55,102 bases of DNA from Blautia sp. Its GTDB lineage: Bacteria; Bacillota; Clostridia; Lachnospirales; Lachnospiraceae. A program made the position numbers and the translations under genes. The first letter of the stretch is position 1. The number at the start of each line of letters is the position of its first letter. The notes beneath the pieces were generated by a model. That model was not told where the DNA came from. It searched no databases and was given only the letters and a program-made list of their open reading frames with translations. Shown piece after piece: positions 39,848 to 47,693 of this stretch. The stretch lies in the NCBI GenBank assembly GCA_017515325.1, contig JAFWGA010000027.1, forward strand, positions 1 through 55,102, given 5' to 3'.

Positions 39848-40477
39848 TTATTTGTCCAATGAAATGTGATCAAAAAGATTTTTGGGATCAGGAAGCGGAA
39901 GGGATGAGACCAGTTCTTCTGTTCCTGCCAGACTGCCATAGCCGGTCAGAATCTCGGACAGAGCAGGAAGCTGAGACAGGAAAGCGAAACGAGCCAATAT
40001 ATCATAGTTCATGCCGCAGTCCATCCAGTCTATGAGGAAGCCCTGGAAAAGACAGTGACAGCAGTAATATAAGGCATCCAGGGTGGGAGAGAGCGAGGAC
40101 TCTGTTTTTTCCTGATTGCGAAAGAATTGGTCAAGGGCTGAGGAGATCAGGATACGGAGATAGTGTATAAAGATCTCGCTGCGGGAGGAATGATACAAAT
40201 GCAGCATAGCTTTCTGGTGCTTATTGATACAGCCGATGATACTGGCCAGGGTATCCATCAGGCTGAAGCAGGAGTGAGCCTGTGCCATAAACTGCTCCAG
40301 CTCTTGGCGCAAGGCTTCATCTACAGCCCGGGGAATATCCTGAAAATGATAATAAAAGGTGTTGCGGTTGACGCCGCAATGTTCCACGATGTCCTTTACG
40401 GTAATCTTCTCTAGGGGTTTTTCATCCAAAAGAGACAGCACCGTGGAAAGGATCACTTCTTTTGTATAAGTAGCCAT
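39848..40477 (-). CDS. TetR/AcrR-family regulator
   Basis: 209 residues. DNA-binding domain at 8-55: VILSTVLSLLDEKPLEKITV, KDIVEHCGVNRNTFYYHFQD. The C-terminal half has the ligand-domain shape of the YbiH/TetR_C group with no recognisable ligand motif. AAAGG lies only one base before the ATG, so translation is probably weak. The gene downstream encodes a DUF308 membrane protein with a palindrome before it. Confidence 0.88.
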   Translation of the reverse strand: MATYTKEVILSTVLSLLDEKPLEKITVKDIVEHCGVNRNTFYYHFQDIPRAVDEALRQELEQFMAQAHSCFSLMDTLASIIGCINKHQKAMLHLYHSSRSEIFIHYLRILISSALDQFFRNQEKTESSLSPTLDALYYCCHCLFQGFLIDWMDCGMNYDILARFAFLSQLPALSEILTGYGSLAGTEELVSSLPLPDPKNLFDHISLDK

Positions 40478-44348: not shown

Positions 44349-44882
44349 CTACAGGATCTTTCCTTCGAAAAGGGTGACACAGATATCATAAAGCTGCTGA
44401 ATGTTCAGAGAGCAGTTCTCCTGGATGTAGCTCTTGGCAATACTGGTAAAGCCGCCGGCCAGAAAATGGGCCGTAAAGCCTCGGCGGGGGGGATCAATGT
44501 CCTGAAAAAAGGCAGTACATCCGGCCAGGCTGTCATAAATACTGGAGTAAAGAAGATAATCAATATGATTGTCCACCAGAATGCGGATAAAAGGGCTATG
44601 GTTCACGATGTAGCGGCAATATTCCAGACACAGCTGATGAAAACAATCCGAGCTTCTGTCAGGCAAGGTCGGTTCTTCATAATACTGTTTCCTGAGCAGA
44701 AAGGTAACCACATTCTCCTTTGAAGAAAAAAGGCTGTAAAAGGTTTGTCTGGAAATACCGGCATCCCGGCAAAGCTCACTGACACTGATCTGATCGTAGG
44801 CCTTTTGCTGCATCAGCGCCAGAAGCGTCTGTGCAATCATAGCCTGTGAAGAACAAGCCGTTTTATTCTTTCCGCAGTACAT
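44349..44882 (-). CDS. TetR/AcrR-family regulator of the deaminase-ahcY operon
   Basis: 177 residues from the ATG at 44882 (GAGGTGA upstream; an in-frame ATG at 44918 lacks a site). DNA-binding domain: AQTLLALMQQKAYDQISVSE, then LCRDAGISRQTFYSLFSSKE. The ligand domain is unassigned. The intergenic region to lon holds two TTGACAAATGTCAA palindromes that are its likely operators, plus an imperfect palindrome at 44902-44928 (CCAATGACAAAT / ATTTATCGTTGG). Confidence 0.88.
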   Translation of the reverse strand: MYCGKNKTACSSQAMIAQTLLALMQQKAYDQISVSELCRDAGISRQTFYSLFSSKENVVTFLLRKQYYEEPTLPDRSSDCFHQLCLEYCRYIVNHSPFIRILVDNHIDYLLYSSIYDSLAGCTAFFQDIDPPRRGFTAHFLAGGFTSIAKSYIQENCSLNIQQLYDICVTLFEGKIL

Positions 44883-44963: not shown

Positions 44964-45017
44964 TTGACAAATGTCAAGCACAGTGCTATGATTCCCTCAA
45001 ACCTTGACAAATGTCAA
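44964..45017. promoter_or_regulatory. Divergent promoters with two TetR-type palindromes
   Basis: TTGACAAATGTCAA occurs at 44964-44977 and 45004-45017, centres 40 bases apart (about four helical turns). The first contains the -35 of a rightward promoter (TTGACA, 17 bases, TATGAT at 44987-44992) and, on the other strand, the -35 of a leftward promoter (TTGACA, 17 bases, TAAACT at 44949-44954). The second lies at the expected start of the rightward RNA. Binding would control both the tetR operon and transcription toward lon. Confidence 0.7.
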
Positions 45018-45083
45018 GGATTTTTAGACTTGTGCAGTGCAGTTCACTTTAGAGACGCACAGGTCAAATTTTTTATCAATGGT

Positions 45084-45110
45084 TTGGCACTCATCAAATA
45101 CGAGTGCTGA
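45084..45110. promoter_or_regulatory. CIRCE-like element (HrcA operator) before lon
   Basis: TTGGCACTC, nine bases, GAGTGCTGA. The CIRCE consensus is TTAGCACTC-N9-GAGTGCTAA; 16 of 18 arm positions match and spacing is exact, and the two differences keep the arms nearly symmetric. HrcA normally controls groESL and dnaK. It lies about 150 bases before the lon start codon; a clear -10 near it was not found. Confidence 0.75.
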
Positions 45111-45260
45111 TAAAGTGGAGGAGCCTGTTTCGCCTTTCAGCCGGCAGCTCCAACAGTTACCAAAGACGAATTTACTCCGTGTCAGCGGCTTGTTGCCGCA
45201 GTAAGGCCGTGGGTATCCGAATGGCAGACGATGCTTGAATAGAGAAAAAGAGGAAAGATT

Positions 45261-47693
45261 ATGTCAGTATTACCAACCTATAATATGCTTTTGACACCGG
45301 AATCCTTCGCCTATTTCAGGACAGATTATTACCGGACCATGACAGGAAAGAATCCTGTTACCGAAGAGAGAGTCATCCTGGTCGTAATGAAGACGGATGC
45401 CTCTCGTGAGGAACTGATGAATGACAGCTTTTATCCGATTGGCCTGAATGGGACGATCACAGAGGTAAACCCTAACGGCTATCTGGTTGTGCGCACCAGA
45501 AACAGGGTGAATATTGAAGAGGCGGTCGTTTTTCACGACAAAAGTATTGACCTCTCCATATCAAGGAGAAGGGATATCGAAGACCTCAATGAAGAAGATG
45601 CCTCCGAACGGATCAACGCACTGAAGGCAAGAATGGCCAAATATGTGGATCAGTACCAGTGGGGAATGATGATGCGTACCAATCTCTCTCGCTGGACAAA
45701 GATCGGAGAAATCGCCTCCGCTTTGTCCCCCTGGCTGATCAATACCAACCAGGAGAGATATGAAATCCTTGCCGAGGACAGCCAACAGGCCAGATTCGAC
45801 ATGCTGGAGAAGCTGCTTTACGAGAATCTGGAGATGTCCCAGATCCACAAAGATGCCCAGAGTGCCCAGGAAGCGGACCATCAGAAGCTCTACCGGGAAT
45901 CCGCCATCAAAAAGCAGATGGAATACCTGCAGAAGGAACTGGATGAGCTGCACCCGGAGAATGTCTCAGATTTAAGAAAGCTTGAACTCAGACTTGAGGA
46001 GGCAGAGCTGAATGAGAATGCCCGCAAGGAGGCAGACAAGGTGTTAAGCCGATTAAAGCAGGAGGGGGCGAACGGCCCCGAATCGGGCCTGTTGTACGAC
46101 TACCTGGATTATCTGGCGTCTCTGCCCTGGAAGAAGGAAAAAATCAGGGATATTTCCCTGACGGAGGCGGAAGAGGCACTATCGGAGGATCATTATGGCC
46201 TGGATAAAGTAAAAAAGAGGGTGATCCAGCAGATCGCCGTCATGAACCTGAAAAGACAGCAGGCCGGTTCGATTCTTCTGTTTGTGGGAGCCCCCGGCAC
46301 CGGAAAGACCAGTATCGGCCAGAGCATCGCCAGGGCTTTGGGCAGGGAATATGTCAGAGTCAGTCTTGGCGGTGTCAGGGATGAGGCAGATATCCGAGGC
46401 CATCGCAGAACCTATATCGGAGCCATGCCAGGGAGGATTCTGGATGGCATTGCCAAGAGCGGAGTTTCCAATCCGGTCATGGTTCTGGACGAGGTAGACA
46501 AGCTTTCCCTGTCCTATCAAGGGGATCCGGCCAGCGCTCTGCTGGAGGTATTGGATCCGGAGCAGAATGCAAGCTTCACCGATCATTACCTGAATGTGCC
46601 CTTTGATCTTTCCGATGTCTTTTTTATCTGCACGGCCAATTCTGTGGATACCATACCGGAGCCTCTGCTGAACCGTATGGAAGTGATCTCCTTCCAGGGA
46701 TATACCCCTACAGAAAAGTATGAGATCGCCCGCCGCCACCTGCTGCCTAAGGCTATGCATGCAGTGGGGTTGAAAGAGACGGATCTCCATATTACGGACG
46801 AGGCCATCCGCCGTACCATCGAGGATTACACGAGGGAGGCAGGAGTCAGAGGACTGAAAAAACGCATGGATATGATCTGCCGAAGTGCTGCCGTGACCTT
46901 TGTGAGACAGGAGGAAGAGCGTAGAGATTCGGACACAGGAGAGCCTTATGCCGTCCAGGATGCCCATGTCGGTAAATCGGATTCAAATTTAGAATCCGTG
47001 GAAGAAAAGCTGGAACCCGTCGCCAGGATACAGTCGGAAGTTCAGCATCCCAGGGTAGAGGTGAACGAAGAAAACCTTCGTGATTTTATCGACAGCCGTC
47101 CCATCCTGCACCGCCAGGTTGGCGAGAAGGCCAATGCCGGCATTGTCACGGGACTCGCCTGGACCCAGGCAGGCGGCGACATCCTTTATATTGAGACCAT
47201 GTTCACAAAGGGTGAGGGGAAGCTTTTGATCACGGGACAACTGGGAGACGTGATGAAGGAATCCGCACAGATCGCTGTCAGTCTTGTCAAGTACATCTTT
47301 CCCGATCAGGCGGAGATTTTTGAAAAGAACACACTCCACATCCACGTGCCGGACGGGGCAACGCCCAAGGACGGTCCCAGTGCCGGTATTACGCTGACAA
47401 CAGCCCTGGCTTCACTGGTTTCAGGGACACCTGTCACACCCCAGGTTGCCATGACAGGAGAGGTGTCTTTGCAGGGCGGCGTAAAACCCATCGGAGGCCT
47501 GCCGGAAAAACTGATGGCTGCCCAGAGAGCCGGCGTCAGGAAGGTATTCATTCCCCAGGACAATGTCGAAGACTTGAGGGACGTGGCCGAGGAAGTAAGG
47601 GAAGCACTGGAAATCATCCCCGTGACCGAGGTCGAAGAGGTGCTTGACCATCTTGGAATCAGAACCACAGCCCCTGTGCTCAGAGCAGTATGA
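45261..47693 (+). CDS. lon: ATP-dependent protease LonA
   Basis: 810 residues. N-terminal substrate domain at 5-200, coiled coil around 205-260, AAA+ module with Walker A GAPGTGKTS near 342, Walker B MVLDEVDK near 408, arginine finger region NRMEVI, and the protease domain with Ser in KDGPSAGITLT (near 705) and Lys in GGVKPIGGLPEKLMAAQRAG (near 747). Between the AAA+ lid and the protease there is a charged linker of about 55 residues (EEERRDSDTGEPYAV and following) longer than in Bacillus LonA. A 250-base leader with TetR-type and CIRCE-like sites indicates stress control. Confidence 0.97.
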   Translation: MSVLPTYNMLLTPESFAYFRTDYYRTMTGKNPVTEERVILVVMKTDASREELMNDSFYPIGLNGTITEVNPNGYLVVRTRNRVNIEEAVVFHDKSIDLSISRRRDIEDLNEEDASERINALKARMAKYVDQYQWGMMMRTNLSRWTKIGEIASALSPWLINTNQERYEILAEDSQQARFDMLEKLLYENLEMSQIHKDAQSAQEADHQKLYRESAIKKQMEYLQKELDELHPENVSDLRKLELRLEEAELNENARKEADKVLSRLKQEGANGPESGLLYDYLDYLASLPWKKEKIRDISLTEAEEALSEDHYGLDKVKKRVIQQIAVMNLKRQQAGSILLFVGAPGTGKTSIGQSIARALGREYVRVSLGGVRDEADIRGHRRTYIGAMPGRILDGIAKSGVSNPVMVLDEVDKLSLSYQGDPASALLEVLDPEQNASFTDHYLNVPFDLSDVFFICTANSVDTIPEPLLNRMEVISFQGYTPTEKYEIARRHLLPKAMHAVGLKETDLHITDEAIRRTIEDYTREAGVRGLKKRMDMICRSAAVTFVRQEEERRDSDTGEPYAVQDAHVGKSDSNLESVEEKLEPVARIQSEVQHPRVEVNEENLRDFIDSRPILHRQVGEKANAGIVTGLAWTQAGGDILYIETMFTKGEGKLLITGQLGDVMKESAQIAVSLVKYIFPDQAEIFEKNTLHIHVPDGATPKDGPSAGITLTTALASLVSGTPVTPQVAMTGEVSLQGGVKPIGGLPEKLMAAQRAGVRKVFIPQDNVEDLRDVAEEVREALEIIPVTEVEEVLDHLGIRTTAPVLRAV

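Follow-up and report, generated by a model that had tools for sequence, protein, structure and literature searches.

A terminator-like hairpin between a TetR-flanked promoter and a CIRCE element, recurring in related gut bacteria, suggests that Lon output is gated twice

Which regulators act on a lon gene that is preceded both by a CIRCE element and by twin palindromes next to a divergent tetR-type gene, and how are their sites arranged along the transcript? We addressed this question for the lon locus of a Blautia sp. contig; the window, i.e., the whole stretch of DNA analyzed, has 55,102 nucleotides, and the features of interest are collected in Table 1.

Table 1. Features of the lon locus and its upstream region (positions in the window)
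Feature	Position	Strand	Remarks
tetR-type regulator gene	44349..44882	-	TetR_N + TetR_C_8 by Pfam/NCBIfam; divergent from lon
Alternative candidate tetR promoter, TTGACA-17-TAAACT	44977-44949	-	promoter scan
Predicted TetR operator, site 1 (TTGACAAATGTCAA)	44964..44977	.	holds the TTGACA that serves as -35 of P1
lon promoter P1, TTGACA-17-TATGAT with TG extension	44964..44992	+	11/12 promoter match
Candidate tetR promoter, TTGACA-18-AATCAT, reads from site 2	44988..45017	-	promoter scan
Predicted TetR operator, site 2 (TTGACAAATGTCAA)	45004..45017	.	just past the inferred lon transcript start
Intrinsic-terminator-like hairpin, 9-bp outer stem	45027..45065	+	lon leader
U-tract (TTTTTT) after the hairpin	45069..45074	+	ends 9 bp before CIRCE
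CIRCE, predicted HrcA operator	45084..45110	.	TTGGCACTC-N9-GAGTGCTGA
lon, second CIRCE-linked Lon lineage, 810 aa	45261..47693	+	TIGR00763 779 bits, cut-off 608

The CIRCE element named in the original prediction was confirmed. It matches TTAGCACTC-N9-GAGTGCTAA at 16 of 18 positions (2 mismatches) and is the sole match in the window at up to 3 mismatches; 100 shuffles gave none. Genome-wide, the same search found 8 places vs. 1 for the reversed pattern. Seven credible CIRCEs lie in front of hrcA, groES/groEL, htpG, hsp20/clpB (two sites), a second lon on contig C28 and the window's lon, with gene identities read from translations and checked by profile for hrcA and the window's lon only. The place at C48:60807 (3 mismatches) is doubtful as a CIRCE, since the reversed control likewise gives one place. 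HrcA itself is encoded in the genome (PF01628, E 7e-64). Comparison of the lon upstream regions of relatives showed that CIRCE is conserved: at up to 4 mismatches it was present in the last 500 bp before lon in 56 and absent in 22 of the 78 named relatives whose upstream sequence exceeds 100 bp (L112 and L117 have just 3 and 15 bp), and the other DNA of the same loci (693 kb) gave three matches. Together with the CIRCE before the second lon of the genome and the encoded HrcA, this supports the predicted membership of lon in the HrcA regulon. The htpG CIRCE (L004, G000:C18:115921) is found about 245 bp ahead of the start codon and is itself followed by a promoter-like stretch, a placement unlike that of the remaining CIRCEs of this genome. 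Ahead of the clpB CIRCE (L007, G000:C5, 15191) there is a hairpin, CGACCTGTGC...GCACAGGTCG, and then A8; the 3′ arm of this hairpin has GCACAGGTC in common with the lon leader hairpin.

The link to CIRCE follows a particular Lon lineage. Seventeen loci of the window's lineage were found in the 61 genomes searched (at least 49% identity; window and C28 copy counted), and 16 of them carry CIRCE at up to 3 mismatches, the exception being L143. No CIRCE was found at the 19 more distant Lon loci read, the C3 copy of the same genome among them (best 6-9 mismatches). In the lon tree five housekeeping Lon rows stand beyond a long branch (SH-aLRT 100); the tree was built by a quick method with SH-aLRT support only from the 98 rows kept after short, repeated and far-out ones were omitted, and its class labels were partly set by hand (L031, L070, L086, L109, L111, L135).

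Both TTGACAAATGTCAA palindromes were present as originally described, with starts 40 bp apart, and the back-to-back -35 boxes could be verified, as each palindrome holds TTGACA on both strands. The two copies are the sole exact TTGACANNTGTCAA matches in the 3.3-Mb assembly (87.7% complete). A wider TetR regulon was rejected: three one-mismatch sites occur elsewhere in the genome vs. five for the reversed control. The best -10 stands at 17-bp spacing from site 1 in 24 of 27 palindrome loci, the window counted, and the lon transcript would start at about 44999. A lon promoter reading from site 2 on the plus strand was discarded (mean best -10 score of 2.2 vs. 4.6 for site 1), and the promoter scan found no plus-strand promoter in the window's 150-bp gap between CIRCE and lon. 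Site 2 itself, within the stretch 45002-45026, reads as a terminator-like hairpin, CCTTGACAAATGTCAAGG followed by ATTTTTAG.

The divergent gene encodes a member of the TetR family (PF00440, 33.8 bits vs. a cut-off of 24), the start of which, MYCGKNK, is conserved in alignments with relatives. Its AlphaFold2 model (pLDDT 92.8) has an all-helical fold matching TetR structures; in Foldseek searches the closest by E-value were Listeria 4mk6 and DhaS 2iu5, and the top TM-score (0.77) was that of Listeria Lin0861 (3o60). DhaS is also among the nearest named sequence relatives; the DhaS-type profile TIGR02366 scored 47.4 bits vs. a cut-off of 129. A Cys-x-Cys or Cys-Cys motif (ECNCCG and similar) occurs in the Butyrivibrio-group homologues (L108, L104, L125, L114, L129) and is absent from the window's protein. 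A second TetR_C_8 regulator is encoded in the window at 39848-40477 (minus strand), beyond ahcY and a TraX-like gene.

To follow this arrangement through relatives we used two sets of lon loci. The named loci, mostly metagenome-assembled, are the best 80 of 133 matches; for the second set 299 genomes of the family were searched, 54 had a match at E 1e-180, and 56 of 58 loci were new, two that repeated earlier leaders being omitted. The palindrome TTGACANNTGTCAA (up to 1 mismatch) was found upstream of lon in 27 of the 80 named loci; 26 of them (exception L100) carry another copy 38-46 bp off, at up to 3 mismatches. A divergent TetR homologue (36-56% identity) was likewise present in 26 of the 27; the remaining locus, L059, ends 293 bp upstream of lon. 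Conversely, all 26 named loci with tetR beside lon carry palindromes, and tetR was seen in none of the 53 without them, 9 of which have less than 650 bp upstream. The second set added two tetR loci, both with palindromes (one in L184, two in L194); its other 54 loci have neither tetR nor palindromes. Across the 61 genomes searched, the TetR protein was matched at E <1e-25 in four, always beside lon. One further genome, G028, has a weak match (26%, E 7e-18), located on a different contig from its Lon match. Twelve relatives with TetR and twin palindromes have no CIRCE (L085, L087, L088, L090, L094, L096, L099, L101, L102, L132, L133, L136). In these leaders lon begins 40-99 bp past the start of site 2, and no terminator-like hairpin follows site 2 in 11 of the 12, L102 having one; TetR alone can therefore suffice.

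Between the TetR-flanked promoter and CIRCE, the window's leader holds an element absent from the original prediction. A GC-containing stem followed by TTTTTT has the sequence pattern of an intrinsic terminator. The region 45000-45083 folds with a z of -3.48, and none of 200 shuffles was as good, whereas for the whole leader (45000-45261) the advantage over shuffles is slight (z -1.68, matched by 14 of 200); the part before CIRCE alone stands out in folding.

Similar hairpins recur in a fixed place. We scanned 67 distinct CIRCE-lon leaders of the first set, leaving out repeated or near-identical and CIRCE-less ones (more than 4 mismatches; more than 3 in the second-promoter scan), for a hairpin and T-tract 13-21 bp before CIRCE. 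With a cut-off of -5 kcal/mol and 5 of 9 T, chosen after this set had been inspected, hairpins were called in 37 leaders vs. 2.55 expected from dinucleotide shuffles; the stem typically ends about 17 bp before CIRCE, and at 15-18 bp in 31 of the 37. A scan of 80 bp (-6 kcal/mol or better, T-tract) also gave 37 of 67 leaders vs. 9.6% of shuffles, with 32 of the 37 stems ending 15-18 bp before CIRCE. Stem sequences and lengths differ, e.g., GACTTGTGC/GCACAGGTC in the window, TCTGCCGCCCG in L074 and TGGCCA in L126, and many of the hairpins are weak (-6 to -9 kcal/mol). On the lon tree the trait needs at least 17 changes. Hairpins were called by script in 14 of 15 distinct leaders with both TetR and CIRCE vs. 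23 of 52 other CIRCE leaders. In the fifteenth, L086, a hairpin can be made out by eye, followed by just four T. The isolate Butyrivibrio sp. INlla18 (L109) shares the window's layout.

Leaders with the hairpin tend to have a particular promoter layout. A promoter abutting CIRCE (3-24 bp) was found in 25 of 30 hairpin-free leaders vs. 2 of 37 hairpin leaders (Fisher 2e-11); 35 leaders have the hairpin only, 25 the adjacent promoter only, two both and five neither. This exclusion is partly mechanical, because a hairpin and an adjacent promoter would have to be built from the same bases. The link to a distal promoter, with its -10 45-115 bp upstream, is not: such a promoter occurs in 33 of 37 hairpin leaders vs. 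4 of 30 others, and the mean distal score is 10.9 vs. 7.8 in mononucleotide shuffles (39 leaders). In the second set, scanned with the same hairpin cut-off and an adjacent window widened to 1-24 bp, 38 of 56 loci have CIRCE, and these leaders divide into 11 with the hairpin only, 18 with the adjacent promoter only, one with both and eight with neither (p 0.001). The distal promoter was present in 10 of 12 hairpin leaders of this set vs. 1 of 26 others. By eye, at least one hairpin call of this set (L209) is a promoter palindrome. Among eleven independent pairs on the lon tree that differ in the hairpin, the hairpin is accompanied by absence of an adjacent promoter in 9.0 pairs, with the opposite pattern in 0.1 (averages; median p 0.004); for presence of a distal promoter the figures are 8.4 and 0.0 (averages; median p 0.008). 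The second lon of the Blautia genome (L139, G000:C28:306-332), 52% identical to the window's and with its own CIRCE, has a promoter adjacent to CIRCE and no hairpin at this place, so that one genome seems to use both layouts.

At CIRCEs of other genes the combination of terminator and operator was absent from our sample, three promoter palindromes aside. Out of 29 CIRCE loci of relatives (one per genome; by reading mostly hrcA, groE, htpG and hsp20), three were flagged, and all are hrcA promoters in which, by eye, the -35 region forms a hairpin arm. None was flagged at the hrcA, groES, htpG and clpB/hsp20 CIRCEs of the genome itself.

Candidates for a second promoter at CIRCE in the TetR loci did not hold. 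The best scores in the preceding 90 bp were 6-10, mostly at about the level of mononucleotide shuffles (mean 7.4); the higher-scoring ones (L116, L135), which reuse the T-tract or site 2, fail to convince, and a -10 inside the CIRCE spacer was dropped after inspection by eye, given the GC-rich spacers in L114, L126 and L129. In 27 of 37 hairpin leaders lon begins 9-51 bp past CIRCE, too close for another promoter to fit in once the hairpin has been passed; the transcript therefore crosses both hairpin and CIRCE.

With moderate confidence we read the lon upstream region as a serial two-input switch on one promoter. P1 would start within TetR site 1 and its transcript just before site 2, and a TetR dimer on one of the sites or on both would block initiation of lon, and of tetR, until some signal frees them. 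The transcript would then run for about 70 nt through the hairpin and on to the U-tract before CIRCE. More tentatively, and as a serious possibility rather than the expected outcome, we propose that HrcA is a heat-sensitive roadblock that arms a terminator at a fixed distance before CIRCE, in series behind the TetR-controlled promoter. Bound to CIRCE, HrcA would stall RNA polymerase at the U-tract, where the hairpin would release it (roadblock-assisted termination); such release could stop queues of polymerases from pushing HrcA off CIRCE. HrcA loses activity when GroEL is saturated by unfolded protein, and polymerase would then read through and Lon be made. HrcA would act on elongation because the transcript must cross hairpin and CIRCE, with no later promoter. 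In the TetR loci this gate would sit behind the TetR-flanked promoter. The hairpin could also end the transcript of the upstream gene where that gene is co-directional.

For the first input, other accounts of the same features concern the nature of the TetR protein. DhaS is an activator, and the best sequence and Foldseek matches of the lon-linked protein include it (2iu5); the palindromes, however, contain the -35 of P1 and sit just past the inferred start, the usual place of repressor sites, and we regard a DhaS-like activator as very unlikely. From the position of the operators relative to P1 we infer that the protein acts as a repressor. The original prediction had made it the regulator of an SAH deaminase-AhcY operon, tying proteolysis to the state of the methylation cycle. 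In the window the SAH deaminase gene and ahcY come after tetR in the same direction, neither a promoter nor a terminator was found to separate tetR from the deaminase gene, and read-through from the one into the other is possible. Against this stand the relatives: neither gene adjoins tetR in any of the 22 that have tetR next to lon and a further 1.5 kb or more of sequence on the far side of tetR (another four stop within 400 bp), the gene beyond tetR differs between them, and the genome holds no further exact palindrome. The adjacency is thus local, and coupling of lon to the methylation cycle is highly improbable. L091 has a distant 23% amidohydrolase match and no tetR. As tetR was found beside lon with palindromes and not with SAH genes, the protein is best taken as the partner and probable regulator of lon itself. 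What remains of the predicted TetR control is its direction, backed by the TetR-palindrome pairing and the overlap with the lon promoter; its attribution to an SAH operon falls.

For the second input, a simpler account has TetR repress P1 and HrcA work as an ordinary repressor or roadblock further downstream, with the hairpin as a constitutive attenuator or insulator unlinked to HrcA. Both operators are convincing on their own, many hairpins are merely moderate and 30 of the 67 CIRCE leaders are hairpin-free, all of which would suit two ordinary, independent controls. It leaves unexplained why the distance from stem to CIRCE has stayed mostly at 15-18 bp despite differing stems and loops and at least 17 changes on the tree, why the hairpin accompanies the distal promoter, and why it was not found at the sampled, mostly non-lon CIRCE loci, the three promoter palindromes aside. 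We consider independent controls rather unlikely on this evidence, and quite unlikely a regulation at the RNA level, in which a thermosensitive or antiterminated hairpin would sense something else, or the CIRCE RNA stem would affect mRNA stability or folding. The hairpin does sit in the leader, and CIRCE also folds as an RNA hairpin; yet the arms of CIRCE agree with the consensus of the DNA operator, no antiterminator was noticed on casual inspection, and no Rfam family reached its gathering score in the window leader, the one match being a microRNA family at 18.2 vs. 80.5 bits.

Compared with known systems, the locus resembles the class I heat-shock regulon (groESL, hrcA-grpE-dnaK) in operator sequence and spacing and in the encoded HrcA, and the same genome has CIRCE before hrcA, groES, htpG and clpB/hsp20, as in that regulon. 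It differs in that CIRCE stands before lon and, in many relatives, after a terminator-like hairpin instead of at the promoter. CIRCE upstream of lon is known in Mollicutes, according to the available parts of reports on Mycoplasma pneumoniae (PMC7737663), where the trigger-factor promoter drives lon as well, and on Spiroplasma melliferum (PMC5138195). Those parts mention neither a terminator-CIRCE layout nor a TetR partner; here, moreover, CIRCE serves a second Lon lineage, which coexists with a CIRCE-free housekeeping Lon, and this use is the variation.

The window's TetR protein shares helix-turn-helix and fold with DhaS and other TetR_C_8 regulators and differs in being paired with lon and twin 6-2-6 palindromes. 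The proposed HrcA action is akin to protein roadblocks (LacI, CcpA, CodY), in which a protein bound downstream of the promoter stops elongation. As described in the available part of PMC4132739, LacI roadblocks halt E. coli RNA polymerase near the operator, its maximum travel being 25 or 55 bp in the 30- and 60-bp constructs; strong promoters overcome them through polymerase cooperation, and the sequence before the roadblock may affect termination. Release is mainly by Mfd there (PMC4132739), whereas a built-in hairpin would do so here. Among the literature matches listed, mostly outside subscription journals, we recognized no TetR-lon pair or HrcA roadblock by titles and term counts.

If this reading is true, the classical heat-shock repressor HrcA would control elongation, not initiation, by arming a terminator, an unusual mode for this protein, and the promoter, terminator and operator would form a compact design that can be built and tested. 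Together with TetR it would place a two-key lock on the stress protease Lon. In relatives from the Lachnospiraceae and Erysipelotrichaceae the TetR partner travels with the second Lon lineage, and from its ligand one would learn what, other than heat, creates a need for Lon in gut anaerobes.
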